From: Granulosicoccus sp.
GTDB taxonomy: Bacteria > Pseudomonadota > Gammaproteobacteria > Granulosicoccales > Granulosicoccaceae
Direction of reading: 5' to 3'
NCBI GenBank assembly: GCA_020627685.1
Contig: JAHDGK010000014.1
Span: 1-35,203, forward strand
DNA: 35,203 nt
Made by a program: the position numbers and the translations under genes. Positions 1,971-25,112 of this stretch are shown piece after piece; positions within the stretch are counted from its first letter, which is position 1; every line of letters begins with the position of its first letter. The notes beneath the pieces were generated by a model. That model was not told the DNA's origin. It saw only the letters and a program-made list of their open reading frames with translations, and made no database searches.

Positions 1971-3260
1971 TTACATTAGCGACGGAAGCACCAACGCGAT
2001 TGAAGGTATCAAAGCCAGCAGCAGTAGTCTGAAAATATCCGCTATCCAGAATGGTGTGACCCCTTTGAAGATAGTTTTTACAGAGACATCTTTAAGGACG
2101 CCTTTAAGCACAAACACATTCAAACCAATAGGTGGCGTAATGAGGCTTATTTCAGTAGCTACAACTACCAGAATTCCAAACCAGATTAAGTCAAATCCCA
2201 AGGCTTCTACAACGGGTGCAAATATAGGTACTGTCAGGAGAATCATGGATAAAGATTCGAACACGCAGCCCAGTACCAAGTAGATAGCCAGGATGATGAA
2301 AATGACGCCCAGGGGCGAAACATCGAAGCTATTGACGATTTGAATAAGGCCGTCGGGTAAACCTGCGCGGTTAACGAAGTTTGAAAAAATCATAGCGCCA
2401 AAGAGCACCAGAAAGAGCTTCGCAGTTGTAAGCGTGGTTTCTCGAGAGACATCAAATAGGACTTTCCAACTCAAAGCACCGCGAGCCCAGGCTATTAAAA
2501 TGGCTCCAGCCGCACCCATACCGGCCGCTTCTGTAGGAGTAAAAGCACCGATGTAGATACCGCCGATAACGAAAATAAAGAGCCCGAGTGTGGTCCATAC
2601 ATCGCGCAGTGCGATTAAGCGCTCTTTCCAGGTGCTCCGTTCACCAGCGGGTCCTGCATCAGGATTTCGACTGACGACATACTTAACTGCAAAAAGGTAA
2701 AACATCACGCCGATAATGCCCGGGATGACACCCGCGATAAACAATTTGCCAACCGATGCGTTTGTAATGAGGCCATAGATAACCAAGATGACGCTTGGCG
2801 GAATGAGGATGCCCAGAGTTCCGCCTGCTGCAATAGAGGCTGTAGCGAGTGAATCGCTGTATTTGTAGCGCCGCATTTCAGGCATGGATACCTTTGACAT
2901 CGTAGCGGCTGTCGCCAGTGAGGATCCGCAAATGGCTGAGAACATGCCGCATGCACAGACAGTGGACATGGCAAGTCCACCTTTTTTATGGCCCAGAAAA
3001 ACAAAGGCAGCGCGGTACAATTCTTTTGCCATGCCGCCACGTTCAACCATCAGTCCCATCATGATGAAAAGTGGGACTACCGACAGGCCATAGCTTTGCC
3101 CTGAGTCTATGACCAGTCGTGCAGCACTGGACATGGCTGCTTTAAAGTTAGCCAGTTCTGCGAAGCCGACAACGCCGACCAGCCCTAGTGCCACGCCCAA
3201 CGGCATGCGCAAGAACGCAAGGACAAGAACCGCTGCAAATCCAATGAGTGCTGCCGTCAT
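1971..3260 (-). CDS. dctM: TRAP transporter large permease subunit (DctM family)
   Basis: A 429-residue, almost entirely hydrophobic protein with the spacing of a DctM-type large TRAP subunit. Features are an N-terminal pair of membrane helices, the segment GGTLGILIPPSVILVIYG typical of the family, a cytoplasmic basic stretch (RNPDAGPAGERSTWKERL), GGIYIGAFTPTEAAGMGA, and a C-terminal EISLITPPIGLNVFVLKG motif. In this family the large subunit forms the Na+-coupled elevator transport domain in the inner membrane and takes substrate from the periplasmic DctP protein. Its start overlaps the end of the dctQ gene by 4 bp, which shows translational coupling. It completes a dctP-dctQ-dctM operon read on the minus strand. 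The substrate cannot be named. The neighbouring catabolic genes suggest an organic anion or zwitterion used by this island. Confidence 0.95.
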   Translation of the reverse strand: MTAALIGFAAVLVLAFLRMPLGVALGLVGVVGFAELANFKAAMSSAARLVIDSGQSYGLSVVPLFIMMGLMVERGGMAKELYRAAFVFLGHKKGGLAMSTVCACGMFSAICGSSLATAATMSKVSMPEMRRYKYSDSLATASIAAGGTLGILIPPSVILVIYGLITNASVGKLFIAGVIPGIIGVMFYLFAVKYVVSRNPDAGPAGERSTWKERLIALRDVWTTLGLFIFVIGGIYIGAFTPTEAAGMGAAGAILIAWARGALSWKVLFDVSRETTLTTAKLFLVLFGAMIFSNFVNRAGLPDGLIQIVNSFDVSPLGVIFIILAIYLVLGCVFESLSMILLTVPIFAPVVEALGFDLIWFGILVVVATEISLITPPIGLNVFVLKGVLKDVSVKTIFKGVTPFWIADIFRLLLLALIPSIALVLPSLM

Positions 3261-3784
3261 TCTTGGTCGCTTCCTTCTAAGCCTTGGGTGGAGCCGGGTC
3301 GGGACAGGGTAATAACGAATCGCAGCAGAGACATAAATGCGGCGACAAAGATCGAAAGCGTGATAAATCCTACAACGATGTAGCGGGGGATGGATAAGTA
3401 CTCAGTGACATCCCCATCTTCCAAGGCGCGTATCGCATAGTCATACACCCGGTCGCCGAGCTTTATGGCAATGAAGAAGGAAATAGCCAGAAGTATGAGA
3501 CCGATAAACCAGCCCACATAGCCTTTTCTGAAGAAGCCGATAAGGTCAACGATGACGTGGTCATTGCGAAAGAACATCAACGGAAAGGAGAAGAAAATAA
3601 TCCCCGCCATACAAATACGCACCAGCTCAACGGCGCCTGTGACCGGCATCGTTAAAAAGTATCTGCCAATGACATCGGCACAGGTGAGAACAATAAGCCC
3701 GAGTAGAATACAGGCGGCGATATTGGCAGCAAAAAGGCCGGCAGAATCTGCCAGCCTTTCTGTTTTATCCAAGAAACGTTTCAT
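3257..3784 (-). CDS. dctQ: TRAP transporter small permease subunit (DctQ family)
   Basis: This 175-residue protein has four predicted membrane segments, at roughly residues 17-37, 50-70, 90-112 and 132-155, the normal topology of DctQ small subunits. After the second segment comes the family-like stretch FPLMFFRNDHVIVDL. In TRAP systems DctQ scaffolds DctM in the inner membrane and helps receive the periplasmic binding protein. The gene starts with ATG, has AAGGA upstream at normal distance, follows dctP by 21 bp and overlaps dctM by 4 bp, so all three are one transcription unit. DctQ proteins diverge fast, so the assignment rests on topology and position more than on strict motifs. Confidence 0.92.
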   Translation of the reverse strand: MKRFLDKTERLADSAGLFAANIAACILLGLIVLTCADVIGRYFLTMPVTGAVELVRICMAGIIFFSFPLMFFRNDHVIVDLIGFFRKGYVGWFIGLILLAISFFIAIKLGDRVYDYAIRALEDGDVTEYLSIPRYIVVGFITLSIFVAAFMSLLRFVITLSRPGSTQGLEGSDQE

Positions 3785-3805: not shown

Positions 3806-4810
3806 TTACTGTTGCGCGCGAAGATACTCAAGCGCTGCTTTGGCATCGATACCACGCTCAGCAACACCTTCAAGAACTGATGCTTCTATGCCGCTGGTAA
3901 TTTCAGTGAAGTAGGCACGCTCTTCATCGCTCGCATCAACGATTTCAAGACCGAAGTCAGCAGTGGCTCTTTCAATTCCGAATGCATCTGCTTCGTCCCA
4001 GAATTTACCGATTTGTCCAGCAAGGCCAACGCCGCTAGTTTTATCAACGCATGCTTTGTGCTCGTCAGATAAATCATTGTAGGTATCGCTGTTCAAGATG
4101 ATGGCAAAAGAGGTGGTGTACATGCCATCAGGGTTTCGATAAGAATGTTTAATCAGCTCTGCGACCTTAAACGAGTACAAAGTTTCAGCTGGAAAGAAAA
4201 CACCGTCAGCAACGCCAGATGCGATCGTCTCATAAACGGCAGGAGCCGGAACGTTTACACCGGCAACACCCAGTGCTTCGCCAACAGCGTTAGCAACACC
4301 ACCGCCCACTCGCAGTTTCATGCCTTTAACATCTTTATAAGAGGTGATCTTATCAACGGTGTTGAGGAGTCCGGGGCCGTGTACAAAATTGGCGAGAACC
4401 TCAACGCCTTTGGCTTCCTTTGCAGCAGCCAGGTATTTTTCGTGCGTGCGTTGGAAGGCAATAGACATTGACTCAGCGTTACCGCTGTTGCCGGGAAGTT
4501 CAGCAAGCTTCGTTGCCGCAAATTTGCCGGGCGTGTAACCGTGAACAATCCAGCCGATGTCGGCGACACCGTCACGAATAGTGTCGTATTGAGCCGGTGG
4601 TGGCGCAAGACCATTTTCAACTTTTAAGCTCAGTGAGCCACCTGAACACGCTTGGTATTGTTCGTTCATCCAAGGGAAAACAGCCGTTGCCATGGCGTGT
4701 TTTGGACCTGCCCAATGAGAGACGGTCAACACTTTGTCTGCAGCAAAGCTTGTGTTAGCTAGGGTCATAGTGACCGCTGCCATGGTGAGTGTCTTAGCAA
4801 TTTTATGCAT
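3806..4810 (-). CDS. dctP: TRAP transporter periplasmic substrate-binding protein (DctP family)
   Basis: A 334-residue secreted binding protein. Residues 1-23 form a Sec signal peptide with a basic start, a hydrophobic core and a likely cut after SFA. The mature part follows the DctP fold: VLTVSHWAGPKH at the start, then KGMKLRV, in which Arg167 is the conserved residue that normally salt-bridges a substrate carboxylate, and the later GVADGVFFPAETLYSFK segment. It differs clearly from the second DctP at 31845. It is closer to the branch whose members start with SHW and carry a proline-rich ENGLAPPPAQYD stretch, so the two transporters probably take different substrates. It heads the dctP-dctQ-dctM operon. 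Its start is about 86 bp beyond the 3' end of the ACT-domain gene on the same strand, so that gene may belong to the unit. Confidence 0.93.
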   Translation of the reverse strand: MHKIAKTLTMAAVTMTLANTSFAADKVLTVSHWAGPKHAMATAVFPWMNEQYQACSGGSLSLKVENGLAPPPAQYDTIRDGVADIGWIVHGYTPGKFAATKLAELPGNSGNAESMSIAFQRTHEKYLAAAKEAKGVEVLANFVHGPGLLNTVDKITSYKDVKGMKLRVGGGVANAVGEALGVAGVNVPAPAVYETIASGVADGVFFPAETLYSFKVAELIKHSYRNPDGMYTTSFAIILNSDTYNDLSDEHKACVDKTSGVGLAGQIGKFWDEADAFGIERATADFGLEIVDASDEERAYFTEITSGIEASVLEGVAERGIDAKAALEYLRAQQ

Positions 4811-9717: not shown

Positions 9718-10953
9718 GTGACCGAGTCAACCATTCTTGTTGTCGGAACTTACGACACTAAAGATGATGAACTGAACTACATAGAAACATGCATAACGGC
9801 TCAGGGCGGTCGCACGCTTTCGATGGATGTTAGCGTCTTGGGCGATCCGTCTTCAGCCTGCGATATATCAAAGCATGACGTGGCAGCGGCAGCATCAAGC
9901 TCTATTCAGGCCGCTATCGATAGCGGCGATGAAAATCATGCAATGCAAATCATGGCTCGCGGGGCATCCGAATTAACCGCAAAGCTTCACAGTGAAAACC
10001 GTATCAACGGTGTCATCATATTAGGTGGCACCATGGGAACCGACCTGGCGCTGGACGTTTGCCAGTCGTTACCCCTAGGTGTGCCGAAGTACGTGGTATC
10101 CACTGTCTCGTTTTCACCACTGATACCTGCAGATAGACTCTCACCCGATATTCAAATGATTCTTTGGGCCGGTGGTTTGTACGGTTTGAATTCCGTGTGC
10201 AAGGCCTCTTTAAGTCAGGCTGCTGGTGCTGTGCTCGGCGCTGCCAGAGCCGTCGAGCCGCCTGCTATGGATAAGCCTGTCATCGGCATGACATCTCTAG
10301 GCTCTTCGTGCTTGTCGTACATGAAGCTGCTGAAACCCGCATTGGAAGAGCGTGGTTATGAAGTGGCTATTTTCCACGCCACCGGCATGGGCGGTATGGC
10401 ATTCGAAAAAATTGCCAGCCAAGGTGGTTTTGCCTGCGTCATGGATTTTGCGCTTCCCGAGTTAGGTAATCTCTTGGCGGGGTCGGTGATAAACGCCGGA
10501 GAAGATCGCCTGCTTAATGCGGGTAGGCAGGGCATACCGCAGCTAGTCGCACCTGGTTGCCTCGATCTGATCGATTTTGCAGGCTGGCAGGACATTCCAG
10601 AACAATATTCAGACAGACCCTTTCATGCGCACAATCGCCTAATCAAGTCGTCAGGTTTGAACGATGAAGAGCGACGTGAAACTGCCAGAGAGATGGCAAA
10701 GCGGTTGTCCGGCAGTCAGGCTCCAGTGAATGTGTTTCTCCCTCTCAAAGGCGTTGAGGAATGGGACAAACCCGGTGAACCTGCGCACGACCCCGAGGCT
10801 TTGGCAGCTTTTATTGATGAATCGCGCAAGGTGTTTACAGCACCTATTCATCTCACAGAGGTGAATGCCCATATCAATGATCAGGAATTTACCGATGCGG
10901 TGCTAGCGTGCTTTGATGAATGGGTTGCCAGTGGTATTGTTAAAACCTCATAA
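9718..10953 (+). CDS. Tm-1-like ATP-binding protein (UPF0261 family)
   Basis: A 411-residue protein covering the whole UPF0261/Tm-1-like domain. It has the N-terminal signature VVGTYDTKDDELNYI, then GVIILGGTMGTDLA around residues 98-111, the conserved YVVSTVSFSPL, GMTSLGSSCLSYM, the FHATGMGGMAFEKIA segment, LVAPGCLDLIDF, and a C-terminal FLPLKGVEEWDKPG. The plant homologue Tm-1 binds ATP and inhibits tomato mosaic virus replication, but the bacterial role is not established. Bacterial members often sit in catabolic clusters, as here. The GTG start is supported by AGGAG seven bases upstream. It is the first gene after the terminator at 9646 and lies 40 bp before the FAD oxidoreductase gene. 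No enzymatic function can be assigned with confidence. Confidence 0.9.
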   Translation: MTESTILVVGTYDTKDDELNYIETCITAQGGRTLSMDVSVLGDPSSACDISKHDVAAAASSSIQAAIDSGDENHAMQIMARGASELTAKLHSENRINGVIILGGTMGTDLALDVCQSLPLGVPKYVVSTVSFSPLIPADRLSPDIQMILWAGGLYGLNSVCKASLSQAAGAVLGAARAVEPPAMDKPVIGMTSLGSSCLSYMKLLKPALEERGYEVAIFHATGMGGMAFEKIASQGGFACVMDFALPELGNLLAGSVINAGEDRLLNAGRQGIPQLVAPGCLDLIDFAGWQDIPEQYSDRPFHAHNRLIKSSGLNDEERRETAREMAKRLSGSQAPVNVFLPLKGVEEWDKPGEPAHDPEALAAFIDESRKVFTAPIHLTEVNAHINDQEFTDAVLACFDEWVASGIVKTS

Positions 10954-10993
10954 AAACACGTCCTAGCTGGTATTCAGGTAAGACCAAGCCATC

Positions 10994-12265
10994 ATGAATC
11001 AGGAAACTATTTCCCTTTGGGATGCATCCGCTGAAGAGCGCCCCATCGAGACGGAATTTAAACCCGACCGGCACGTCGATGTTGCGATCGTTGGTGGCGG
11101 ATTTACCGGGCTTTCAACCGCTTTGCACTGTTGCGAAAACGGTATGGAGGCACAGGTCATCGAAGCACGGCAAATTGGCTTCGGTGGCTCAGGACGTAAC
11201 TGTGGTTTGGTCAACGCTGCGCTTTGGTTACCACCTCAGGACGTCAGAAAACAACTGGGCACGGTCTATGGTCCGCGTTTTATCGAACAGTTTGGTAAGG
11301 GGCCAGAATATGTCTTCCATCTGATTGAAAAACATCAGATGCGTTGTGAAGTTACCCGCAGCGGCACCATTCACGCGGCTCACTCTCCGTCGGGTTATGA
11401 AGAACTGGAAGGTCGGGCTGCTGAGTGGAAACGTTTGGGCGAACCTGTTGATCTTATTGGCAGGGAAGAGGTCTCAGAGTTAATCGGTACAGACGTTTTC
11501 TTTGGTGGTTTGCTCGATCACAGGGCGGGCACGATAAACCCCATGGGTTACTGTCGTGGATTAGCACGTGCAGCCCATGGAGCCGGCGCCACTATAAGCA
11601 CAGGTGTTACTGCAACAGAGTTGCGAAAGCAGGGCGATGGCTGGTTGGTCAATACCGACAAAGGCGCGATCACAGCGAATAAGGTGGTACTGGGTACAAA
11701 CGCCTATACGGACAAGCTTTGGCCAGATCTGAAAAAGGTGTTCACCATGATTCACTACTTTCAGTTGGCGACCAAACCGCTAGGTGAAGAGGCATCGCAT
11801 ATTCTGCCGGGTAAGCAGGGGCTTTGGGATACCGGTCAAATCATGTTTAATATCCGAAGAGATGCCTTTAATCGTTTGCTGGTTGGCAGCATGGGTCAAG
11901 TCGTGGGTTCAACCGATAAAGGCTTGTCACATTACTGGGCCAAAAAGCGCATCCGAAAAATATTCCCAACACTGGGTGAGATGGAATTTGAAACTTCCTG
12001 GGACGGACAAATTGCCATGACGCCTGACCACCTACCTCGAATACATGAATTAGATAATGGCCTGTTTACGGCTATTGGTTATAACGGTCGTGGTATCACA
12101 ACTGGCACCTTGTTCGGTAAAGCATTCGCAGACTTACTGGCGGGTATGGATAAAGCGGACCTGCCACTTCCAGTCTCACCAATGAAAACTGTTGCGAGTG
12201 CTCCTGTTTTTAAAAAACTGTACCAGAGTGCTTTCGTGGCTAATCAAATTATCAAGAGTGTTTAG
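10994..12265 (+). CDS. FAD-dependent amine/amino-acid oxidoreductase (DAO family, PuuB-like)
   Basis: A 423-residue flavoprotein of the DAO family (glycine oxidase, sarcosine oxidase, PuuB). The N-terminal Rossmann motif is DVAIVGGGFTGLSTALH (Gly34, Gly36, Gly39), with Glu57 in VIEAR to bind the FAD ribose. Next comes IGFGGSGRNCGLVNA, matching the family segment near the isoalloxazine ring. The C-terminal part has ETSWDGQIAMTPDHLPRIH and GLFTAIGYNGRGITTGTLFGK. Such enzymes oxidise a C-N bond of an amine or N-methyl amino acid to an imine, giving aldehyde or ketone plus amine and H2O2. E. coli PuuB has the same layout, so gamma-glutamyl-amine-like substrates are possible. The product would suit the PuuC-like dehydrogenase at 331. 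It lies mid-operon, with 17 bp to the first possible start of the sulfatase gene. Confidence 0.9.
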   Translation: MNQETISLWDASAEERPIETEFKPDRHVDVAIVGGGFTGLSTALHCCENGMEAQVIEARQIGFGGSGRNCGLVNAALWLPPQDVRKQLGTVYGPRFIEQFGKGPEYVFHLIEKHQMRCEVTRSGTIHAAHSPSGYEELEGRAAEWKRLGEPVDLIGREEVSELIGTDVFFGGLLDHRAGTINPMGYCRGLARAAHGAGATISTGVTATELRKQGDGWLVNTDKGAITANKVVLGTNAYTDKLWPDLKKVFTMIHYFQLATKPLGEEASHILPGKQGLWDTGQIMFNIRRDAFNRLLVGSMGQVVGSTDKGLSHYWAKKRIRKIFPTLGEMEFETSWDGQIAMTPDHLPRIHELDNGLFTAIGYNGRGITTGTLFGKAFADLLAGMDKADLPLPVSPMKTVASAPVFKKLYQSAFVANQIIKSV

Positions 12266-12285
12266 TTTCGTAAAGTACACTCTTG
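12253..12285 (+). other. Hairpin across the oxidoreductase stop and the upstream side of the sulfatase gene
   Basis: CAAGAGTGT (12253-12261) and ACACTCTTG (12277-12285) form a perfect 9-bp stem with a 15-base loop that contains the stop codon of the FAD oxidoreductase. No T-tract follows, so it is unlikely to be a simple terminator. It could be an RNA-processing or translation-control structure within the operon. It also covers the alternative TTG start at 12283, which is one reason to prefer the ATG at 12313. Confidence 0.4.
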
Positions 12286-12312
12286 TCCGTAACATCTGAG
12301 CAAAGCGAATTA

Positions 12313-13956
12313 ATGAACATACTGTTTATCATGTATGACCAGCTTCGATTCGATTACTTATCTTGTGCGGGGCACCCGCACCTGAAGACACCGAACTTCG
12401 ACCGGGTAGCGGCTAAAGGGGTTCGTTTCACCAACACTTATGTTCAGTCACCCGTTTGCGGGGCATCACGCATGAGCTTTTATACCGGCCGCTATGCATC
12501 GTCGCACGGTGCTCAATGGAATGGCTTTCCATTGCGTGTCGGTGAGATGACGATGGGAGATCATCTGCGCCGGGAAGGGATGGACTGTTGGCTAATTGGT
12601 AAAACACACATGAAAGCCGATGCCGATGGTATGCAGCGCTTGGGGTTGTCAGCAGATTCAACCATTGGTGCTCGTCAGGCAGAGTGCGGTTTCGACACAT
12701 GGATACGTGATGACGGACTGTGGGGGCAAGGGCCCGATGGTTTCTATGATGAAAAGCGATCACCCTATAACGAATACCTTAAATCTAAAGGTTACCCCTC
12801 GGATAATCCCTGGGCTGATTTTGCGAATGCCGGTGTCAGTGAAGACGGAAAATTAGCCTCCGGTTGGATGTTTGCGAATGCAGATAAGCCTGCCAACATT
12901 ATGGAGCCTGACAGTGAAACGCCGTGGTTAACGCGTAAAACGATTGAATTCATGGAGCAGGCCGAAGACGGCTGGTGTGCACATGTCAGTTATATAAAGC
13001 CTCATTGGCCGTATATCGTTCCAGCGCCTTACCACAATATGTTTGGCGTTGAACACGTTCCTGAGGCTGTTCGTGCTGATATCGAAAGAGAGAATGCTCA
13101 TCCGGTATTTGATGCTTATATGGGAAATAAAATTGCCCAGGCATTCCAGCAGGATGAAGTTCGTAAGAAAGTTATTCCCGCCTACATGGGGCTAATCAAG
13201 CAATGCGATGATCAGCTGGGTGTCATTCTGGATTATCTTGAGCAATCGGGCCGGATGGATAACACCATGATCGTTTTAACTTCCGATCATGGCGATTATC
13301 TCGGTGATCATTGGTTAGGAGAGAAAGATCTATTCCATGATCAAAGTGCCAAAATACCACTCATTGTCTACGACCCACGTGCTGAAGCAGATGGCACTCG
13401 CGGAACTTGCTGTGACGCTCTGGTGGAGTCCATAGATTTGGCTGCAACCTTTGTCGAAGTGGCTGGTGGTGAAGTACCCGACCACATTATAGAGGGGCGA
13501 TCGTTATTACCTTTTTTACGGGGAGAAAATCCAGACTGGCGAGAATATGCCATCAGTGAATTTGACTACTCAGTAACTCCGCAGGCGGTAAAGCTGGGGC
13601 TTGAACCGCGTGATGCCAGATTGTTTATGGTGTTCGATGGTCGTTATAAGTTAATGCACGCGGAAGGCGGCTTTCGCCCCATGCTGTTTGATTTACAAGA
13701 AGACCCGCAAGAATTTAACGATCTTGCCAAAGAGGATAACCATGCAGAACATATCGATCGGCTTTATGGCTATCTAGCGCAATGGGGTAGGCGTCTAGCT
13801 CAACGAGTGACCAAGTCTGAAAACGATATAAAGGCAATGCGCGGGCGATCTATCCGCAGAGGCATTTTGCCCTTTCTAGTCGATGGCTCGGAGGTGCCGC
13901 CAGAGCTCACTGAATTTTATCGAGGTCCGGCACCCGGTAACTTTGTAGAAGAATAA
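12313..13956 (+). CDS. Type I sulfatase / phosphonate monoester hydrolase family enzyme
   Basis: A 547-residue alkaline-phosphatase-superfamily enzyme. The N-terminus, NILFIMYDQLRFDYL, carries the first metal-binding Asp (Asp9). Next is SPVCGASRMSFYTGRY, the sulfatase signature, with Cys49 expected to be oxidised to formylglycine and Arg53 beside it. The usual C-x-P-S-R core has Ala for Pro here, a form also accepted by the maturation enzyme. Later, TSDHGDYLGDHWLGEKD carries the metal-binding Asp-His pair. The long C-terminal part fits phosphonate monoester hydrolase and choline-sulfatase relatives. Substrates of this branch are sulfate, phosphate or phosphonate esters. There is no signal peptide, so it acts in the cytosol on an imported ester. 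No formylglycine-generating enzyme gene lies in the window. The start was set at ATG 12313. A TTG at 12283 would add ten unlike residues. Confidence 0.9.
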   Translation: MNILFIMYDQLRFDYLSCAGHPHLKTPNFDRVAAKGVRFTNTYVQSPVCGASRMSFYTGRYASSHGAQWNGFPLRVGEMTMGDHLRREGMDCWLIGKTHMKADADGMQRLGLSADSTIGARQAECGFDTWIRDDGLWGQGPDGFYDEKRSPYNEYLKSKGYPSDNPWADFANAGVSEDGKLASGWMFANADKPANIMEPDSETPWLTRKTIEFMEQAEDGWCAHVSYIKPHWPYIVPAPYHNMFGVEHVPEAVRADIERENAHPVFDAYMGNKIAQAFQQDEVRKKVIPAYMGLIKQCDDQLGVILDYLEQSGRMDNTMIVLTSDHGDYLGDHWLGEKDLFHDQSAKIPLIVYDPRAEADGTRGTCCDALVESIDLAATFVEVAGGEVPDHIIEGRSLLPFLRGENPDWREYAISEFDYSVTPQAVKLGLEPRDARLFMVFDGRYKLMHAEGGFRPMLFDLQEDPQEFNDLAKEDNHAEHIDRLYGYLAQWGRRLAQRVTKSENDIKAMRGRSIRRGILPFLVDGSEVPPELTEFYRGPAPGNFVEE

Positions 13957-13957
13957 T

Positions 13958-14722
13958 ATGAGAGCTCTGATAGTAGGTGCAGCAACAGGCATCGGTGCGG
14001 CTGTTGTTGAAAAGTGGAAGGCGAAAGGTTTTGAGGTCGTCGCACTCGATATTGCTAACCCCGCCAATGTGGATCAGTGGCTACCCGTCGATTTATCAGA
14101 ACCTTCCTCAATTGATGAAGCCGTTGGGCAGCTTAGCGGCACGTTTGACTGTCTCGTATCCAATGCGGGTCTACCTCCCCGAGACGGATTGGAAGAGAAA
14201 ATCCTTGCGGTGAATTTTATGGGTCTTGTGCGTTGTACGACCGCGCTGTTACCCAGGCTGAACAAGGGTGCTGCCATCGTGAACACAGCCTCCCGCGCAG
14301 GTATGGCTTGGCGGGAAAATATCGATCAGGTGAAAGCTTTAATGCAGGTGTCCAATCATGACGCTTTGCGCGACTTTATTGCCAAAGAAGGTATTGATCC
14401 TGTTCGCGCTTATAACTTATCGAAAGAGGCGCTAATAGTTTGGACCATGGCACAAACTGAACGCCTGCTTGAGTTGGATTTACGGATGAATACGGTTAGC
14501 CCGGCCGCAGTTAGCACCGGAATATTAAATGACTTCGCGTCGGCATTCGGCGACAGAATGGTAAAGAACGTGGAGCGTGTTGGTCGCCCCGGTACGGCAG
14601 ACGAAATTGCCGATGTCATCGTGTTTTTGAGCTCACCGGAAAGCCGATGGCTAAAAGGGGTAGACATTACAATTGATGGCGGTATGACGGCTGTTGTACA
14701 GACGGAAAATCTGGGCCTTTAA
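13958..14722 (+). CDS. Short-chain dehydrogenase/reductase (SDR)
   Basis: A 254-residue classical SDR. It has the coenzyme motif GAATGIG at residues 7-13, Asp31 at the end of the second strand, which favours NAD(H) over NADP(H), SNAG at 68-71, Asn86, Ser112, and the catalytic YNLSK (Tyr152, Lys156). A C-terminal SPESRWLKGVDITIDGG closes the fold. The enzyme interconverts an alcohol and a ketone in the cytosol. The region 113-150 is a little longer than usual between the Ser and Tyr and may shape the substrate pocket. The gene begins one base after the sulfatase stop, so the two are coupled. A plausible role is oxidation of the alcohol freed by ester cleavage, but the substrate is not known. 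Confidence 0.94.
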   Translation: MRALIVGAATGIGAAVVEKWKAKGFEVVALDIANPANVDQWLPVDLSEPSSIDEAVGQLSGTFDCLVSNAGLPPRDGLEEKILAVNFMGLVRCTTALLPRLNKGAAIVNTASRAGMAWRENIDQVKALMQVSNHDALRDFIAKEGIDPVRAYNLSKEALIVWTMAQTERLLELDLRMNTVSPAAVSTGILNDFASAFGDRMVKNVERVGRPGTADEIADVIVFLSSPESRWLKGVDITIDGGMTAVVQTENLGL

Positions 14723-14860: not shown

Positions 14861-15901
14861 TTGATCCAAGCACAGCCCCTAGAAGCATCATGGCTTTCGG
14901 CGTTTGTCCAGGTATTGGATAGATGTGCCATTGCCGATACCGAGTCTGTCATCGTGTTGTGCGAGCAACAGAGTCGCCCGGTGCTTGTGCAGCTAGCTGA
15001 GCTTGCACTCGGGCAACTGAATCGTTCATTTTATCGCCTGGTTCTTCCGACACCCAATCATATCAATGGACCCTTGGTGCGTTCTTCCGGCGCATCCCTT
15101 GCGTTGACCGGACAAGCCGGAGCGGTGGATGCGTTGTGTCGTGCCGATGTTGTCATCGATCTGACTATTGAAGGATTGATGCACGCCAGTGAGACGGCTC
15201 AGATATTGCGCTCAGGTACTCGCATACTCAACATATCAAACGAACATCCCGAAAGCCTGAGTCGCCTGGTGCCGCAGTCTTCCATGAAAGACATTGTCAG
15301 AGACTCGGTACGGCATCTAAAAGATGCCCAGCGTATGAGTGTAAAGTCAGCAGCCGGTACCGATCTAGAGGTCTCAATGGCTGGGGCTCAAACGGTGGGT
15401 GTTTGGGGTTGGACAGACAGGCCCGGAACGCTGGCACACTGGCCGGGTGGCTTAGTCGTAAGTTTTCCCAAAGCAAATTCAGTTAACGGGCAACTTGTGC
15501 TGGCAGCTGGCGATCTCAATTTGACGTTTAAGCGGTATATAGAATCCTCCGTGACACTAACGCTTGAGAACGACTATGTCGTGAAAATAGAAGGGCAAGG
15601 TGCTGACTGTGCCCTGATGAAAAACTATTTAGCCGCCTTTAACGACAAGGCTGCGTATGCCACCAGTCATGTTGGGTGGGGGTTAAACCCTGACGCACGT
15701 TATGAGGCAATGACGTTCTATGATCGTGAAGACACAAACGGTACGGAGTTAAGAGCTGTTGCTGGTAACTTTCTTTACTCTACCGGCGCTAATGAATTTG
15801 CGGGCAGATTTACTCGCGGGCATTTCGATTTACCGGTCATGAACTGCACCATTTCATTAGATGACAAAGTAGTCGTTGATGCGGGAGTTCCCGTTGCATG
15901 A
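14861..15901 (+). CDS. NicX-like 2,5-dihydroxypyridine 5,6-dioxygenase family protein
   Basis: A 346-residue protein that aligns over its whole length with Pseudomonas putida NicX as I recall that sequence. NicX is the Fe(II) enzyme that opens the ring of 2,5-dihydroxypyridine to N-formylmaleamate. Matching blocks are ADVVIDLT, ETAQILRSGTRIL, DRPGTLAHWPGGLVVSFP, TSHVGWGLNPDARYEAM, AGNFLYSTGANE, and GHFDLPVMNCTISLDDKVVV. The NicX iron ligands (His265, His318, Asp320) correspond to His270, His321 and Asp323 here, so the metal site is intact. The fold is related to M29 aminopeptidases, and automatic annotation may call it leucyl aminopeptidase. The start is TTG, supported by GGAG six bases upstream and an in-frame stop at 14819 with no ATG or GTG between. 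It overlaps the next gene by 4 bp. The true substrate may be a related hydroxylated heterocycle. Confidence 0.85.
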   Translation: MIQAQPLEASWLSAFVQVLDRCAIADTESVIVLCEQQSRPVLVQLAELALGQLNRSFYRLVLPTPNHINGPLVRSSGASLALTGQAGAVDALCRADVVIDLTIEGLMHASETAQILRSGTRILNISNEHPESLSRLVPQSSMKDIVRDSVRHLKDAQRMSVKSAAGTDLEVSMAGAQTVGVWGWTDRPGTLAHWPGGLVVSFPKANSVNGQLVLAAGDLNLTFKRYIESSVTLTLENDYVVKIEGQGADCALMKNYLAAFNDKAAYATSHVGWGLNPDARYEAMTFYDREDTNGTELRAVAGNFLYSTGANEFAGRFTRGHFDLPVMNCTISLDDKVVVDAGVPVA

Positions 15902-16722
15902 GTGATGAAGATAAGTTGAATAAACTGGCGGGCATCAGCTTTTCCGATTACCCGTCTGTAAATTCAGCGTCTGAGATCGAGACGCTCGTCTGTCTTCATG
16001 GTATCGGCGGCGATGATAAAAGTTTTCTTCCGCAATCAATTGCGTTGAGCGATGAATTTCGTGTCATCTCCTGGAACATGCCGGGATATCAAAACTCGGA
16101 TGCAATAACGCCCGTGACCTTTGAGTTGCTCGCAAAAACTTTAAAGGAATGGCTTGAAACACTGAACGCTGGGCCCGTTCATCTGGTGGGGCAATCCATT
16201 GGGGGCATGATTGCCCAGGAATGTGTCCATCGCTATCCTGAACTCGTTAAGTCTTTGGTGCTTATTGCTACAACGCCAGCTTTTGGCGGTCGTGATGACA
16301 GTTTTAAAGATGCGTTTCTTAAAGCCCGTCTAAAGCCCTTGGATGAAGGCAAAAGTATGCAAACTCTGGCTGAAGAGACTGTGCCTTTGATAACCGGTTC
16401 AAAGGTCTCCGATGAATCTATCGATCATGCAGTTCGTTCAATGGCAGCGGTGCCAGTTCAGACCTATAGAGAGATCTTAAAATGCCTTGTCACGTTTAAT
16501 AGGAGGGAAAGCCTATCTAACATTACGCAACCCGTTTGCGTAATTTCGGGTAGTGAAGATAGCAATGCACCCGCGGTGACTATGAAAAAAATGGCGGAAA
16601 AACTCTCTCATAGTGAGTATCACGAGTTAGAGGGAGCCGGTCATTTGGTTAACCTTGAACTGCCCGAAGCCAGTAATGACATCATTCGTCATTTTATTAA
16701 AAAACAAATTAGCCATGACTGA
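15898..16722 (+). CDS. Alpha/beta hydrolase, possible NicD-type deformylase or ring-product hydrolase
   Basis: A 274-residue alpha/beta-hydrolase-fold protein. The oxyanion-hole region is LHGIGGDDKSF. The nucleophile elbow is GQSIGG with Ser100, an acid residue lies at Asp221 in ISGSEDSNAP, and the catalytic His249 is in EGAGHLVNLELPE. Its start overlaps the NicX-like gene by 4 bp (ATGA), so the two products are made together. In nicotinate degradation the step after NicX is NicD, an alpha/beta hydrolase of about this size that removes formate from N-formylmaleamate. That makes deformylation the first guess. Hydrolysis of another ring-opening product is equally compatible, because the family is versatile and the acid residue here is in the classical position after the seventh strand. 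It is cytosolic with no signal peptide. Confidence 0.9.
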   Translation: MSDEDKLNKLAGISFSDYPSVNSASEIETLVCLHGIGGDDKSFLPQSIALSDEFRVISWNMPGYQNSDAITPVTFELLAKTLKEWLETLNAGPVHLVGQSIGGMIAQECVHRYPELVKSLVLIATTPAFGGRDDSFKDAFLKARLKPLDEGKSMQTLAEETVPLITGSKVSDESIDHAVRSMAAVPVQTYREILKCLVTFNRRESLSNITQPVCVISGSEDSNAPAVTMKKMAEKLSHSEYHELEGAGHLVNLELPEASNDIIRHFIKKQISHD

Positions 16723-17977
16723 TATACAGACAGATCAACCCATTTTTGATGCAGAGCAGTGGGGATTAACTGATCAGCAAATTGCATTGGGCGAGCAGGC
16801 TCGTCAGTTAGGAAAGGCTAACTTTGCTCCGCGCGCTGAAGGATATGATCGCGCCGCGTCATTCCCAACTGAAAACTTTACTGACCTGCACAATGCCGGG
16901 TTACTGGGAATATGCATCCCCTCAGATCAAGGCGGTCATGGTGCAGACCTGAAAACCTATATGCTGACCGCGTCTGAAATTGGTCGTTATTGTGGGGCAA
17001 CGGCGTTAACCTTCAATATGCATGTAAGCTCTTGTCTTTGGACGGGGCCGCTGGCTGATGGCTTATCCATAGAGCCTGATGTCCGAGAAAACCTACAAGC
17101 TGGTCGTCGTCTACATTACAAACGAATCATTGATGACGGGGCGATTTACGCACAGCCTTTTTCCGAAGGTGGCGCTGCGGCTGCTGGTAAAAAGGCCTTT
17201 GGAACCACGGCTCTGCGTCAAGAGGGTGGCTGGCTGGTTAACGGTAAAAAAATATTTGCATCTTTATCGGGTCACGCGAATTACTACGGAGCACTCTGTA
17301 CCGAACTGGAAACTCCGGATTCACGACCATCACGCAGTAATACCATGTACGTTGCAATACCCGCAGATGCACCGGGTGTCAGCGTAGAGGGTGATTGGGA
17401 TCCATTGGGTATGAGGGGTACGGTGTCTCGTACGCTGATATTCAAAGATGTGTTTGTGAGTGAAGAAGCCTTGCTGATGCCTCGTGGAGTGTATTTCAGT
17501 GCCGCGAGCCAATGGCCGCATATGTTTATGACATTAACGCCTGCATACATGGGGATTGCACAAGCTGCCTATGATTTTACCGTGAGCTATTTGCGCGGCG
17601 AATTACCTGGTACTCCGCCTATTAAGCGGCGTATGTATCCCACCAAACAGCTTGCAGTCGCTCAAATGCGCATCATGCTCGAGCAGACTAAATCGCTATG
17701 GTTTCAGAGTATCAGTGAAGCTAAACCCAGCCCGGATAAAGAATCGCTGATTCGTGCCTGGTCTGCGCAATATACGGTTATGGAGAATGCGAATGAAATT
17801 GCGCAATTGGCCATTCGAACCTGTGGCGGGCAGGCCATGTTGCGTTCACTGCATCTAGAAAGGTTGTACAGAGACAGTCGCTGCGGTGCGCTGATGCTGC
17901 CGTGGACCGCTGAGCTGTGTATGGATATGATCGGTAAGGCGGCTCTTTACGAAGCGGGTGAGAGTGACGAAGAATGA
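16715..17977 (+). CDS. Acyl-CoA-dehydrogenase-like flavoprotein
   Basis: A 420-residue protein with the three-part ACAD layout. The N-terminal helical domain runs from DEQ-like LTDQQIALGEQ to about residue 130. The middle beta domain includes AQPFSEGG and GWLVNGKKIFASLSG. The C-terminal helical domain includes AIRTCGGQAMLRSLHLERLYRD. These fold around FAD and would oxidise an acyl-CoA or, in related monooxygenase branches, add oxygen. The catalytic Glu of the usual YEGT segment is not present, because the matching place reads LMLPWTAEL. I also see no Glu in the alternative helix-G position. The reaction is therefore uncertain. The start was set at ATG 16715, overlapping the hydrolase stop by 8 bp. 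An ATG 60 bp upstream would add a tail read from inside the hydrolase gene. It overlaps the ligase gene by 4 bp. Confidence 0.88.
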   Translation: MTDIQTDQPIFDAEQWGLTDQQIALGEQARQLGKANFAPRAEGYDRAASFPTENFTDLHNAGLLGICIPSDQGGHGADLKTYMLTASEIGRYCGATALTFNMHVSSCLWTGPLADGLSIEPDVRENLQAGRRLHYKRIIDDGAIYAQPFSEGGAAAAGKKAFGTTALRQEGGWLVNGKKIFASLSGHANYYGALCTELETPDSRPSRSNTMYVAIPADAPGVSVEGDWDPLGMRGTVSRTLIFKDVFVSEEALLMPRGVYFSAASQWPHMFMTLTPAYMGIAQAAYDFTVSYLRGELPGTPPIKRRMYPTKQLAVAQMRIMLEQTKSLWFQSISEAKPSPDKESLIRAWSAQYTVMENANEIAQLAIRTCGGQAMLRSLHLERLYRDSRCGALMLPWTAELCMDMIGKAALYEAGESDEE

Positions 17978-19503
17978 GCTTGTACCGGCGCCTGAAAGGA
18001 CACGCACAATTTCAACCGGAAAAAACAGCGATAGATTTTGAAGGGCAGGTTGTTAGCTACCAACAGCTTCTCCAAAGAGTTGATGAGTGCATAGCCTATT
18101 TTGATAGTGCGAATATTAAAGCGGGTGATAGAGTCGCTTTTCTTGCTCTAAATCATCCGGATATATTTGCATTCGTTTTCGCTGCATCACGGGTAGGCAT
18201 TATTTTAGTACCGTTGAATTGGCGTTTGTCAGTTGATGAATTGGACTACGTCATTCAAGACTGTAGTCCCTCACTACTCATGCATGACGCAGACTTTGCG
18301 GATACCGCGCTTAAGCTCAAAGCCAATGCGTTAACTCAAAGTGGTAGTAGTTTTATGATTCAAGCTTTAGGTGAACCGCTTATAGAGAGCACGGGAGTTA
18401 ACCGAGATGTCGGTGAAAATAGGAACGTTTCAGTAGCTGAACAAGACAATGAGCTGAGCCGGGATTTTCTAATCGTATATACCTCCGGGACGACAGGAAG
18501 ACCGAAAGGCGCGGTACTAAATCAACAGGCTATTTTGTGCGGTGCCGAGATGTCTCAGCATATGCTCGACTTGACCAGTCATGATCGTGTGCTCAATGTA
18601 TTGCCTCTGTTTCATGTTGGCGGCCTCAATATTCAGCCACTTCCAACATTGCTTTACGGTGGAACGCTGTTCTTACACACACGTTTCGATCCGGCCATGG
18701 CAGCCCGTACCATGGAGGAGCAGAAAATCACCTTAATTAATTCTGTGCCTACCGTACTGCAAGCCATTCTTGCTACCGAGGAATGGAAAACAAGTTCGTA
18801 TAGTGATTTGCGAGCTGTCAGTATTGGGTCAACCGATGTCCCTATGTCGCTCATCAATAAAGTCCGTGAAAGAGACATTGCGTTAATTCAAATATACGGC
18901 GCTACAGAAACTTCACCGGCGGCCATTTATCAGAAAATTGAACATAGCGATAAGGTGGGTTCAATAGGTAAAGCCGGGTTACTCTGCGACATACGGCTGG
19001 TTGATGAAAACGACCGAGTGGTGGAGACAGGCTGCTCCGGTGAAATTCAAGTCAAAGGCCGTAATATCTTGTCGTACTATTGGAACAACAAAGAAGCCAC
19101 CGAATCCAGCATTGATAACGGGTGGTTTAAAACCGGCGATGTCGCGCACGAAGATAATGACGGGTTTTATTGGTTTGATGATCGCGTAAAGCATGTGATT
19201 ATCTCCGGAGGGGAGAACATTTATCCGGCTGAATTAGAACGTGTCATCGGTGAGCTACCCGGTATTGAAGCCGTGTCGGTGGTGGGGCAGGCTGATCAGC
19301 GATGGGGTGAGGTACCTGTCGCTGTCATAGTCGGTAATGCAACCGAAAAAAACATCAAAGACGCGTGCACTAAAGTCGCTCGATTTAAACAGCCAAAGCA
19401 GTTATATTTTGTCGACGAATTGCCCCGAAATGCCTTAGGGAAAATACAGGTACAACGAGTAAAGGAGCTAGTGACAACACTGGCCAACGAAAGTAAACAG
19501 TAA
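17974..19503 (+). CDS. Acyl-CoA synthetase / AMP-forming CoA ligase
   Basis: A 509-residue ANL-superfamily ligase. It has the P-loop YTSGTTGRPKGAV, the ATP-binding IYGATETSP, GWFKTGDVA, the hinge region FDDRVKHVIISGGENIYPAELE, and the C-terminal catalytic Lys490 in PRNALGKIQVQR. The enzyme activates a carboxylic acid with ATP to an acyl-AMP and transfers it to CoA in the cytosol. The length and motifs fit medium-chain or aromatic acid ligases, and substrate preference cannot be read directly. Its ATG overlaps the stop of the ACAD-like gene (ATGA), so the two are translationally coupled and probably act on the same acid. The PhyH gene follows after 18 bp. In this operon the acid may come from ring opening upstream, which is inference. 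Confidence 0.93.
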   Translation: MSLYRRLKGHAQFQPEKTAIDFEGQVVSYQQLLQRVDECIAYFDSANIKAGDRVAFLALNHPDIFAFVFAASRVGIILVPLNWRLSVDELDYVIQDCSPSLLMHDADFADTALKLKANALTQSGSSFMIQALGEPLIESTGVNRDVGENRNVSVAEQDNELSRDFLIVYTSGTTGRPKGAVLNQQAILCGAEMSQHMLDLTSHDRVLNVLPLFHVGGLNIQPLPTLLYGGTLFLHTRFDPAMAARTMEEQKITLINSVPTVLQAILATEEWKTSSYSDLRAVSIGSTDVPMSLINKVRERDIALIQIYGATETSPAAIYQKIEHSDKVGSIGKAGLLCDIRLVDENDRVVETGCSGEIQVKGRNILSYYWNNKEATESSIDNGWFKTGDVAHEDNDGFYWFDDRVKHVIISGGENIYPAELERVIGELPGIEAVSVVGQADQRWGEVPVAVIVGNATEKNIKDACTKVARFKQPKQLYFVDELPRNALGKIQVQRVKELVTTLANESKQ

Positions 19504-19521
19504 GGTAAGAAAAGAAAGACC

Positions 19522-20355
19522 ATGCCGAAAGTACTGACACAAAGCCAAATACAGGAATATCAGGAGACTGGATTTTTATCTCCCATTGATGTGATGTCTG
19601 AGCACGAGGCGCTACAGTACAAAGAGCGGCTTGAAGAGGCGGAAGCCAATCATCCAGAACATATTCATGCTGAAAACCGGAACAACGCGCATTTGAGCTT
19701 TGTGTTTCTAGATGAACTCGCCCATCATCCCGTCGTACTCGATGTTGTTGAAGACCTGCTGGGTGTAGACTTTACCTTATGGGCGAGCGTACTGTTTATT
19801 AAAGAACCGAGTTCCTCATCCTATGTAAGTTGGCACCAGGATGCGACCTACATGGGGATGAACAAGAACACTTTCTTAACACCTTGGATAGCACTAAGTC
19901 CGAGTAATCTGGAAACCGGATGTATGAGCATGATTCCGGGTAGTCATCACAACCATATTGTCGATCACGAAGATACCTTTGCTGAAGACAATATCCTCAC
20001 TCGTGGTCAACGCGTGAATAATGTCGATGAATCGCAAGCGGTTCATCTCATTTTAAAACCTGGTCAAATGTCCGTACACCATTGCGAAGTAGTTCACGGC
20101 TCCCAACCGAATAAAAGCTCTCAACGGCGAATCGGTTTTGCCCTGCAGTCTTATATGCAGCACGATGTCAGGCAAACTATCGGACAGAATCAATGGATGC
20201 ATTGCCGAGGTGAGAAACGTCGGGATGATGATCTGGTTGAACTACGTCGCCCGCGTTACGATCTGGATCCGCTCAGTATGTCGGACCGGGAAGCTGCTAG
20301 TAAAAACTACGCCGATATTCTCTACAACGGTGCGAAGCAGCGCCGGCTTTATTAA
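19522..20355 (+). CDS. PhyH-family Fe(II)/2-oxoglutarate dioxygenase
   Basis: A 277-residue PhyH-type oxygenase. The iron site is formed by His105 and Asp107 in SWHQDATYM and by His192 in VHHCEVVHGSQPNKSS. Arg203 in QRRIGFALQSYM would bind the 2-oxoglutarate carboxylate. The HxD form (Asp present) indicates hydroxylation rather than halogenation. Residues ESGC-like LETGCMSMIPGSH are the standard family core. Relatives hydroxylate phytanoyl-CoA, ectoine, quaternary amines and many small molecules, and some members remove groups by hydroxylation of an adjacent carbon. It lies 18 bp after the CoA ligase gene, closing the + strand operon, and converges on the exporter gene. It may act on the ligase product or on the entry compound, and the sequence does not decide. 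Confidence 0.92.
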   Translation: MPKVLTQSQIQEYQETGFLSPIDVMSEHEALQYKERLEEAEANHPEHIHAENRNNAHLSFVFLDELAHHPVVLDVVEDLLGVDFTLWASVLFIKEPSSSSYVSWHQDATYMGMNKNTFLTPWIALSPSNLETGCMSMIPGSHHNHIVDHEDTFAEDNILTRGQRVNNVDESQAVHLILKPGQMSVHHCEVVHGSQPNKSSQRRIGFALQSYMQHDVRQTIGQNQWMHCRGEKRRDDDLVELRRPRYDLDPLSMSDREAASKNYADILYNGAKQRRLY

Positions 20356-20385: not shown

Positions 20386-21216
20386 TTACGGTGACTGCCG
20401 GCTTCGTTGCAGAGTGTATAGCCCCGCGGCAACGATAATGGCGGAGCCAAGCAGGGTCCAAAAATCAGGCAGTTGATGAAACACAAAGTAGCCGTAGATG
20501 GTTCCCCAAATGATCAACGTATAGTGTATCGGCGCGACAACAGCTGCTTCAGCACATTCTAAGGCTTTGATAACCATGACTTCGGCAACGGCTGCTGTCG
20601 CTGCCATTGCGAACAGAAATATCCACTGTGTCCAGGTAGATGGAAGTTCCCAGAAAAACGGTAAGGCCAGTGAAATTAAAAGGCTGGATGTAATAGCCGT
20701 ATACGCGATGGTTGTGGCGGTATTGTCAGTATCTGCAAGAACTCGTCCGATGACCTGCCTTGTCGCGTAAAACGCCGCAGCACCGACAACCAACATGGCA
20801 GCGGGGTGAATGATCCCCATACCCGGTCGTATAACAATCAGCGCACCAATAAAACCGATAACGACTGCACTCCAGCGTCTAACACCCACTTTCTCTTTTA
20901 GAATAAGCGCCCCCGCGATGGTGAGAAAAAACGGTGCGACAAAGCTTGCTGCAACAGCATCGACCAAAGCGACATATTTAACGGCATACACAAACAGTAA
21001 ACTTGAACAAACGACCAGTACACCGCGTGTAATTTGTAACTTTGGCTGTTGGGTTCTTAGAATGCCGGGGCCCCTTAAGAACAGTAAGAGGATAAGCCCC
21101 GAAAACAGTCCCAGTTGTCTGAACCAGATGATTTGTACAGGATGGAATGAGTCGGTAAGAAATTTTGCCAGCGTATCGCCAGCGGAAAACAGAAACATCG
21201 CGCACACCATCAACAT
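20386..21216 (-). CDS. EamA/DMT-family transporter
   Basis: A 276-residue integral membrane protein with two EamA repeats, each of about five hydrophobic segments. It starts MLMVCAMFLFSAGDTLAKFL, and the second repeat starts near GIIHPAAMLVVGAAAFYATRQVIGR. DMT proteins of this size usually export amino acids or metabolites across the inner membrane. The annotated ATG falls almost at the first membrane helix. The frame stays open for another 37 codons upstream (to the stop at 21328-21330), reading a Ser/Pro-rich segment that ends VRQSNSQRG, which looks like a normal cytosolic leader. No ATG, GTG or TTG lies in that stretch, so either the short form is real or a rare start is used. It is a single gene between two opposite operons. 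Confidence 0.88.
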   Translation of the reverse strand: MLMVCAMFLFSAGDTLAKFLTDSFHPVQIIWFRQLGLFSGLILLLFLRGPGILRTQQPKLQITRGVLVVCSSLLFVYAVKYVALVDAVAASFVAPFFLTIAGALILKEKVGVRRWSAVVIGFIGALIVIRPGMGIIHPAAMLVVGAAAFYATRQVIGRVLADTDNTATTIAYTAITSSLLISLALPFFWELPSTWTQWIFLFAMAATAAVAEVMVIKALECAEAAVVAPIHYTLIIWGTIYGYFVFHQLPDFWTLLGSAIIVAAGLYTLQRSRQSP

Positions 21217-23835: not shown

Positions 23836-24612
23836 ATGCTGAATGACATTATCAATACCGAACGCTATGTGATTTCAGACCATGGCTTTCAAGCTGAATG
23901 CAAAGCACAACTGGACAAGCACGGGGTGTTGGTTGTGCCCGATTTTCTCACGCAACAGGCGGTTGAGTCTCTGGTTCATGAAGGGGAGGCTCATCATGAC
24001 AAAGCCTTTTTTACGAGCGGTGATCATAACGCCTACTTAAAGCCCAGCGATTCAACGTTCGATGCCAATCATCCACGTAATCGTACGGTCACATCGTCAA
24101 AGGGGTGCATTACCACCGATCAAATCCCGGACCGGTCTGTGCTTCATACCCTATACGGCGACGAACAATTCAAAGGTTTTCTGTGCAACGTTCTCGATGA
24201 ACAGGCGCTGCATGAATACGCGGACCCATTGTCGTCCATCAATTTGCACTATGCCTCTGAAGGTCAGGAGTTAGGTTGGCACTTCGACAACTCTTCATTC
24301 GCCATCACACTACTCGTGCAAAAACCCACCGGCGGTGGTGTATTTGAATTTGTAAAAAATGTACGAGACGCTGATAAAGGCGATATGAACTACGACGAGG
24401 TTGGGCGCATTTTAGACGGTACGCAAACGGTAGAAACCCTCAGTATGGATCCGGGGTGTCTGGTGTTGTTCCGCGGGCGAAACTCTCTACATCGCGTAAC
24501 GCCCACCATCGGTGATGTGTGCCGTATGCTTGTGGTACTGGCCTACAATAGTGAGCCTGGCGTTTCTTTGTCAGAATCTGCACGTATGACGTTCTATGGC
24601 CGCTTGAACTAG
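23836..24612 (+). CDS. 2OG-Fe(II) oxygenase, possibly of the BesD/HalD-like group (HxD type)
   Basis: A 258-residue protein with a jelly-roll Fe(II)/2-oxoglutarate site. His149 and Asp151 lie in [15 protein letters not shown], the distal His219 in NSLHRVTP, and Arg230 eleven residues later for 2-oxoglutarate. It is unlike the PhyH protein at 19522. Its size and the spacing between the two His ligands (70 residues) recall the free-amino-acid halogenase BesD and its hydroxylase relatives. In BesD the metal-binding Asp is replaced by Gly. Here the Asp is kept, so hydroxylation is expected. The family link is from memory and tentative. A good AGGG ribosome-binding site precedes the ATG. It lies 25 bp after the PLP enzyme and 32 bp before the 2Fe-2S subunit. 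An amino acid or small amine is a reasonable substrate guess. Confidence 0.82.
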
Positions 24613-24644: not shown

Positions 24645-25109
24645 ATGATAAGCCTGACTATCAATGGAGAAGCGCACGAGGTTGATGTGCAACCAGAAAT
24701 GCCCTTACTTTGGGTTTTACGCGATGAACTGGGGCTAACCGGCACGAAATACGGATGTGGCATTGCACAGTGTGGCGCGTGTACGGTACATCTAGACGGT
24801 ATTGCCGTCCGGTCGTGTCAGCTGCGTGTGGGTAGTCTTCAAGGTGCGTCTATCACAACCATTGAAGGTCTGGGAACACCCAATGCCATGCACGCCGTGC
24901 AAGAAGCCTGGTCTGAGAAGCAAGTGGCTCAGTGTGGTTACTGTCAGTCAGGTCAGATGATGCAGGCCGCGTCTCTATTAACAACCACCCCTAAACCGAC
25001 TGATGCGCAAATCGATGCTGTCATGTCCGGCAACCTGTGTCGCTGCGGTACCTATCCGAGAATACGAGCTGCCATTCATGCGGCGTCTAATAAATTGCAA
25101 GAGGGCTAA
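24645..25109 (+). CDS. 2Fe-2S subunit of a molybdenum hydroxylase (IorA/NicA-like)
   Basis: A 154-residue protein with two [2Fe-2S] clusters, as in the small subunits of xanthine-oxidase-family enzymes. The plant-ferredoxin-type cluster is bound by Cys38, Cys43, Cys46 and Cys58 ([15 protein letters not shown], then SC). The alpha-helical domain cluster is bound by Cys97, Cys100, Cys132 and Cys134 ([10 protein letters not shown], then [10 protein letters not shown]). It moves electrons away from the molybdenum centre of its partner, encoded 3 bp downstream. The form is that of isoquinoline 1-oxidoreductase, nicotinate hydroxylase and periplasmic aldehyde oxidoreductases, in which no separate FAD subunit exists. 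Indeed no FAD subunit gene is present. The subunit has no signal peptide and would be exported bound to its Tat-carrying partner. Confidence 0.94.
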
Positions 25110-25112
25110 GTC

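Follow-up and report, generated by a model that had tools for sequence, protein, structure and literature searches.

A gene encoding a homologue of NicX, the ring-cleavage enzyme of nicotinate and picolinate degradation, lies within a 35,203-nucleotide stretch of Granulosicoccus sp. (NCBI GenBank assembly GCA_020627685.1, contig JAHDGK010000014.1, positions 1 to 35,203; hereafter the window) in an operon whose other members are not those of the known pathway, which raises the question of what this operon serves to degrade. Its four core genes, encoding in order a NicX-like protein, an alpha/beta hydrolase, an acyl-CoA dehydrogenase (ACAD)-like flavoprotein and a coenzyme A (CoA) ligase, span positions 14861-19503, all on the plus strand. 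This four-gene unit, termed type A, is tentatively proposed to form a self-contained aerobic module degrading an aromatic acid, most likely one derived from anthranilate, and we infer its reactions, step order and substrate from the comparisons presented below. No description of the operon was found in a literature search that covered few subscription papers and no supplements.

The sequence-only reading of this DNA had recognised a 346-residue NicX homologue with the iron ligands His270, His321 and Asp323, and this was borne out. The protein matches NicX of Pseudomonas putida KT2440 (7cn3) at E 3.5e-62 over residues 12-345, and its AlphaFold model (mean predicted local distance difference test score, pLDDT, 92.4) superposes on 7cn3 with Z 44.7 and a root-mean-square deviation of 2.0 Å over 338 residues at 38% identity; the same model gives Z 21.6 with AmpT of Thermus thermophilus. 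The three ligands and a fourth, Ser307 (Ser302 in KT2440), are all in place, are invariant across 24 homologues and are present in all 117 proteins of a wider alignment.

In the KT2440 enzyme, PMC7910607 describes iron binding by H265, S302, H318 and D320, a hydrogen-bond network of H105, E177 and H189 with the substrate, and two channels separated by H105 and E308. The 117-protein alignment holds 9 nicotinate-type rows, 91 type A rows (84 distinct, seven contigs being doubled) and 17 rows of a second non-nicotinate kind, type B, the types being assigned by best-scoring query. Glutamates at the positions of E177 and E308 occur in 9/9 nicotinate-type proteins, in 0/84 distinct type A proteins and in 0/17 of type B. 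R293, H105 and H189 are kept in all 84 distinct type A proteins, as are the iron ligands, and H105 is replaced by Phe in five of the eight nicotinate-type proteins other than KT2440. The phylogeny that the sequence-only reading had proposed, built on 57 rows, joins the nine nicotinate-type NicX proteins in one clade at 100/100 support, with the remaining 48 beyond that branch. The window's protein groups with those of loci L021 and L023 (loci compared are given as L numbers); neither type A nor type B forms a single clade (three changes each), and 11 of the 17 type B rows are united at 100/100. Judged by sequence, the window's protein is a NicX-fold protein with an intact iron site but not a nicotinate NicX, because it stands outside the nicotinate-type clade and has lost both pocket glutamates. 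Likeness to KT2440 NicX thus extends to the fold, the four ligands, Arg293, His105 and His189, and the differences lie in the two glutamates, the separate clade and partners other than NicC, NicD, NicE and NicF.

With respect to these partners, the assignment of ACAD-like, CoA ligase and PhyH families to the genes downstream was confirmed by family matches (Table 1), and the proposed overlaps of 4 to 8 bp hold for the junctions of NicX-like gene and hydrolase (4 bp, 15898-15901), hydrolase and ACAD-like gene (8 bp, 16715-16722) and ACAD-like gene and ligase (4 bp, 17974-17977). A ribosome site, GGCGGAG, ends 6 bases 5' of the start codon of the NicX-like gene. The PhyH gene, counted in the same operon by the sequence-only reading, starts 18 bp past the end of the ligase gene with no overlap. 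A search at E 1e-8 gave no relative of it at the other NicX-like loci compared; one remote match (18%, E 2e-7) came up elsewhere in its own genome, and the gene was rejected as a pathway member in favour of a local addition. The suggestion of a NicX-NicD pair fared no better, its overlap apart: the hydrolase is 39-55% identical to 12 type A hydrolases and 27% to one of type B, but only 13-15% identical to two NicD proteins, and is not NicD.

The neighbourhood comparison supports the unit as a whole. A match to the NicX-like protein was found in 17 of 95 genomes, its own included, and all ten type A loci long enough to be judged (L021-L026, L028-L031) show the core order of NicX, hydrolase, ACAD, ligase. 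Among named genomes, a scan yielded at least 582 relatives, a figure that combines types A and B and may include others; the best 80 were kept, and the four genes stand in the same order in 57 of these 80 best-scoring loci, a recurrence beyond chance. Among the other 23, ten end less than 3 kb downstream of the NicX-like gene; L109, L112, L116 and L117 have other surroundings. Hosts by title include Granulosicoccaceae, Rhodobacteraceae, Roseibium, SAR116 and Burkholderiales, along with metagenome-assembled genomes (MAGs) called Deinococcales, Anaerolineae and Acidimicrobiia.

As to the substrate, anthranilate or hydroxyanthranilate released by kynureninase is the most likely candidate and our best single guess, since kynureninase is the one recurrent clue. 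Its gene lies directly 5' of the NicX-like gene at L104 and opens the series kynureninase-EamA-NicX-hydrolase-ACAD-ligase, accompanied by transporters of the tripartite ATP-independent periplasmic (TRAP) kind found in the window, at L091 and L097. In L094 and L082 it sits at the locus edge, at distances of about 1 kb and about 9 kb respectively. L168 has it some 2.5 kb away from the NicX-like gene, with a tryptophan dioxygenase gene coming after it; both lie within 6 kb, and an AsnC-type regulator stands between. The NicX proteins of L082, L091, L094 and L097 are 74-82% alike and were counted as one lineage. Both kynureninases tested, from L104 and L168, score above the cut-off of TIGR01814 (NCBIfam).

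At the level of whole genomes, 36 of 48 with a NicX-like gene have a kynureninase (E 1e-20 or better). A phylum sample of 397 other genomes was divided into 12 type A, 5 type B, 15 nicotinate-type and 365 remaining, the flanks being seen for 8/12, 3/5 and 6/15 of the three types and the others typed by genus and score. Kynureninase is present in 11 of the 12 type A genomes versus 85 of the 365 remaining (Fisher p 1.8e-6), and in 6/7 genera (p 0.001) when one genus is counted once. In the window's own family, where 39 of 48 members have it, the count is uninformative; the window's genome does have one (400 bits to 1qz9), adjoined by a flavoprotein that matches general aromatic hydroxylases.

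In the proposed route, a carboxylic aromatic substrate would be taken up by a TRAP or other carrier, and the CoA ligase would activate either this compound or an acid formed later. Ring hydroxylation would fall to the ACAD-like protein, supplied with reduced flavin by a partner reductase; the NicX-like Fe(II) enzyme would then open the ring with O2, the hydrolase would cleave the ring-opened product, and the fragments would pass as CoA thioesters into central metabolism. Processing through CoA thioesters, already suggested from the sequence, appears likely: the ligase is in place in the 57 loci, and among the flanking genes scanned CoA-type enzymes stand beside single relatives, namely enoyl-CoA hydratase (L078, L162), 3-hydroxyacyl-CoA dehydrogenase (L162), thiolase (L104) and CoA-transferase (L076). 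TRAP transporters (DctM at least 45% identical) occur near 18 of the 80 loci. A more specific version, which we advance with greater reserve, is an aerobic route for kynurenine-derived anthranilate. Here an ACAD-type two-component monooxygenase, its reductase coupled to a sensor, would carry out a CoA-linked hydroxylation, after which a NicX-type Fe(II) dioxygenase would open a carbocyclic aminophenol ring; the route would be spread over many Pseudomonadota and MAGs assigned to a few other phyla.

The same enzymes and logic could instead act on a pyridine or other N-heterocyclic acid that is not nicotinate, an alternative that we consider unlikely but that survives best. NicX homology and the conserved iron site speak for it, and the ring hydroxyl could come from a two-gene molybdenum hydroxylase encoded at 24645-27353, some 9 kb away from the NicX-like gene; the 2Fe-2S subunit of this hydroxylase is 45% identical to a NicA, and its molybdenum cofactor subunit is weakly like a NicB (22%). 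Outside the window, on the other hand, relatives of the hydroxylase pair were found at nicotinate-type loci alone and at none of the other type A loci; both pocket glutamates have been lost, and the kynureninase neighbours would be left unexplained. The sequence-only reading had thought of a heterocycle other than 2,5-dihydroxypyridine; an N-heterocycle is not required, as kynureninase points to anthranilate.

The hydroxylation step of the anthranilate route depends on the nature of the ACAD-like protein, which is 61-84% identical to 37 relatives. Its best sequence matches are 5z8t, titled Flavin-containing monooxygenase, and 5gj7, for which the literature search gave no useful paper, followed by ordinary dehydrogenases. 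In alignment, Pro396 stands where butyryl-CoA dehydrogenase (9w60) has its catalytic Glu, just beyond the point where alignments to short-chain acyl-CoA dehydrogenase (SCAD) stop, and the alternative Glu site of isovaleryl-CoA dehydrogenase falls on Met270, as placed by eye through the SCAD alignment; these are the positions that we take to be catalytic in the two enzymes. Pro396 and Met270 are invariant in all 38 sequences. Flavin reductase genes adjoin the NicX-like gene in six of the eight type A regions of the phylum sample (L161, L164-L168) and lie about 7 kb from it in the other two (L162, L163). The L164 reductase carries a fused MarR domain, those of L064 and of type B L041 a fused LysR sensor domain; that of L161 finds its best match in the p-hydroxyphenylacetate hydroxylase (HPAH) reductase model at 197 bits, below the cut-off of 340. 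Since both catalytic glutamates are lost and a flavin reductase is paired with it in relatives, the ACAD-like protein is probably a monooxygenase of two-component type and not a dehydrogenase. A true dehydrogenase or other flavoenzyme, with the NicX-like enzyme acting after a CoA-linked oxidation instead of a hydroxylation, would agree with the fold comparison, which does not separate these functions (dehydrogenases up to Z 41.5, 5z8t at Z 39.5), but the invariant Pro and Met and the dedicated reductases of relatives make it rather improbable.

Several observations weigh against the anthranilate module. Kynureninase stands near the operon in only five of the 80 loci and one of the eight regions, about three lineages, many flanking genes scanned at other loci are housekeeping genes, and kynureninase is also present in 5/5 type B and 7/15 nicotinate-type genomes. 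The kynureninase of the window's genome lies on a different contig (C82), and its neighbourhood holds no relative of the operon; no tryptophan dioxygenase was found in the genome. The CoA ligase matches o-succinylbenzoate (OSB)- and feruloyl-type ligases, and no anthranilate ligase is among its 26 PDB matches at E 1e-40. No copy of it was seen close to the operon in L104, L165 or L166, suggesting that it may act late. The hydrolase was not detected in four of the 80 loci, which read NicX-ACAD-ligase, and only the NicX-like gene and the fused reductase are visible at L164. Across the 80 loci and the window, one reductase cluster covers only nine loci, and no flavin reductase was recognised in the window, to which that search was confined. 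The absence of AntA (anthranilate 1,2-dioxygenase, TIGR03228) was set aside as weak support: none of 49 genomes, the window's included, exceeds the cut-off (best 203 bits versus 671.9), but only four of 58 comparison genomes do (p 0.12), these being drawn from 97 kynureninase-bearing, type-A-free genomes, type B and nicotinate-type included.

A further alternative is that the operon is all or part of the homarine (N-methylpicolinate) pathway that was recently reported. Marine MAGs are among the carriers by title, and homarine catabolism, with Mgd taking part, is cited in PMC13390433 as conserved in environmental bacteria; however, the CoA ligase and the enoyl-CoA hydratase, thiolase and kynureninase neighbours would seem to misfit a route to N-methylglutamate, and we regard this as improbable.

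The nic genes themselves bear on the last alternative. NicC, NicD, NicE and NicF of Pseudomonas sp. BYT-5 gave no match in the window at E 1e-3, in line with the earlier observation that NicE and NicF are not seen in the operon. The same queries do match at the nicotinate-type loci L170-L175, except NicC at L174, and NicD, NicE and NicF are present at the nicotinate-type loci examined, in most cases together with NicC, as judged for L033 and other records by annotated product only. In the whole genome, NicF found no match at E 1e-5, the best match to NicC is only 26%, and a NicE-like isomerase (58%) lies on another contig beside TRAP genes (together L194, 9138-12865) with no other nic gene recognised nearby. 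The view that the protein is still a NicX of nicotinate or picolinate degradation, the rest of its pathway being scattered over the genome, could draw on this isomerase but is largely refuted by the separate clade, the lost E177 and E308, the missing NicF, the poor NicC match and the setting of the NicE-like gene, which leaves it a very small likelihood and upholds the sequence-only view that this is not the known nicotinate pathway. The genes of L194 are possibly an operon for maleate uptake and isomerisation.

Among known systems, the proposed hydroxylation resembles that of IacA, HsaA and DszC, which we take to be Group D two-component flavin monooxygenases: an ACAD fold without the catalytic Glu and, in relatives, a partner flavin reductase, here joined to a NicX-like dioxygenase. 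The C1 reductase of HPAH is fused to a MarR domain, as is that of L164. The 2-aminobenzoyl-CoA pathway of Azoarcus evansii combines CoA activation of anthranilate with a flavin monooxygenase, as proposed here, a likeness of description and not of sequence (PMC4539516). It differs in having one monooxygenase/reductase followed by beta-oxidation, and the passages of that source compared here describe no NicX-like ring opening. Four aerobic anthranilate routes are listed in two reviews, of which the 2018 one calls the gene of the gentisate route unknown.

The type B cluster (Aminobacter pAA02, Ensifer, Shinella, Sinorhizobium RAC02) likewise has NicX-like, ACAD and hydrolase genes, but in the order NicX-ACAD-hydrolase and with a glutamine-synthetase-like enzyme in place of the CoA ligase. 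Its fullest set, at L041 (6263-18376), comprises a gentisate 1,2-dioxygenase, an FAH hydrolase, a nitrilase-type hydrolase, a flavin reductase, the NicX-like, ACAD and hydrolase genes, the glutamine-synthetase-like enzyme, a LysR-fused flavin reductase and an APC permease; parts of it are also found at L033, L034, L158 and L159. Gentisate 1,2-dioxygenase is present at all five loci (562 bits to 3bu7 at L041), and because of this and the gap named in the 2018 review, type B deserves a look as a gentisate-route candidate. On annotated plasmids, type B relatives go under the name 'peptidase M29'; the records examined included no annotated one of type A.

Table 1. The four core genes, the adjoining genes and the TRAP genes of the window
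Feature	Position	Strand	Remarks
NicX-like non-heme iron dioxygenase (putative), 346 aa, core gene 1	14861..15901	+	TTG start
Alpha/beta hydrolase, 274 aa, core gene 2	15898..16722	+	Abhydrolase_1; position kept in 57/80 loci
ACAD-like flavoprotein, 420 aa, core gene 3	16715..17977	+	Acyl-CoA_dh; probable oxygenase component of two-component flavin monooxygenase
AMP-forming acyl/aryl-CoA ligase, 509 aa, core gene 4	17974..19503	+	AMP-binding
PhyH-type 2-oxoglutarate oxygenase	19522..20355	+	PhyH family, HxD motif present; outside conserved unit
EamA transporter	20386..21216	-	65-68% related genes stand divergently upstream of NicX-like gene in three relatives (L049-L051)
TRAP solute-binding protein DctP	3806..4810	-	56-72% identical relatives near operon in seven loci
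TRAP small permease DctQ	3257..3784	-	–
TRAP large permease DctM	1971..3260	-	Relatives near operon, 77-81% in L078, L082, L091, L094, L097; 70-71% in L095, L111

Upstream of the operon, a separate run of genes at 9718-14722 encodes a UPF0261 protein, an L-pipecolate-oxidase-like DAO, a sulfatase/phosphoesterase and a short-chain dehydrogenase/reductase, the last of which ends 138 bp before the operon starts. Downstream, at 23836-24612 and 3' of a cystathionine beta-lyase gene, lies a protein of the HalD/BesD lysine halogenase family (Pfam HalD; PDB matches to lysine halogenases and hydroxylases), which is probably a hydroxylase because the HFD motif is kept. Elsewhere, a cytochrome P450 family occurs near the NicX-like gene in nine loci of the 80-locus set, directly before it in L078 (3636), where the enoyl-CoA hydratase also lies, and L082 (8376-9599). 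An ACAD (L045, 11989-13236) sharing 55% identity with that of the window lies among mobile elements on a plasmid of the cyanobacterium Dolichospermum, with no NicX-like gene annotated around it.

Taken together, the NicX-like family is common, with at least 582 relatives in named genomes, yet the window's protein has no Pfam or NCBIfam match at E 0.001. In the more specific version of the route, opening of a carbocyclic aminophenol would lie outside the 2,5-dihydroxypyridine activity known for the NicX family. If the proposed route is right, bacterial recycling of tryptophan-derived aromatic nitrogen would become testable in culturable strains. The MarR and LysR sensor domains fused to the reductases also give access to the effector.

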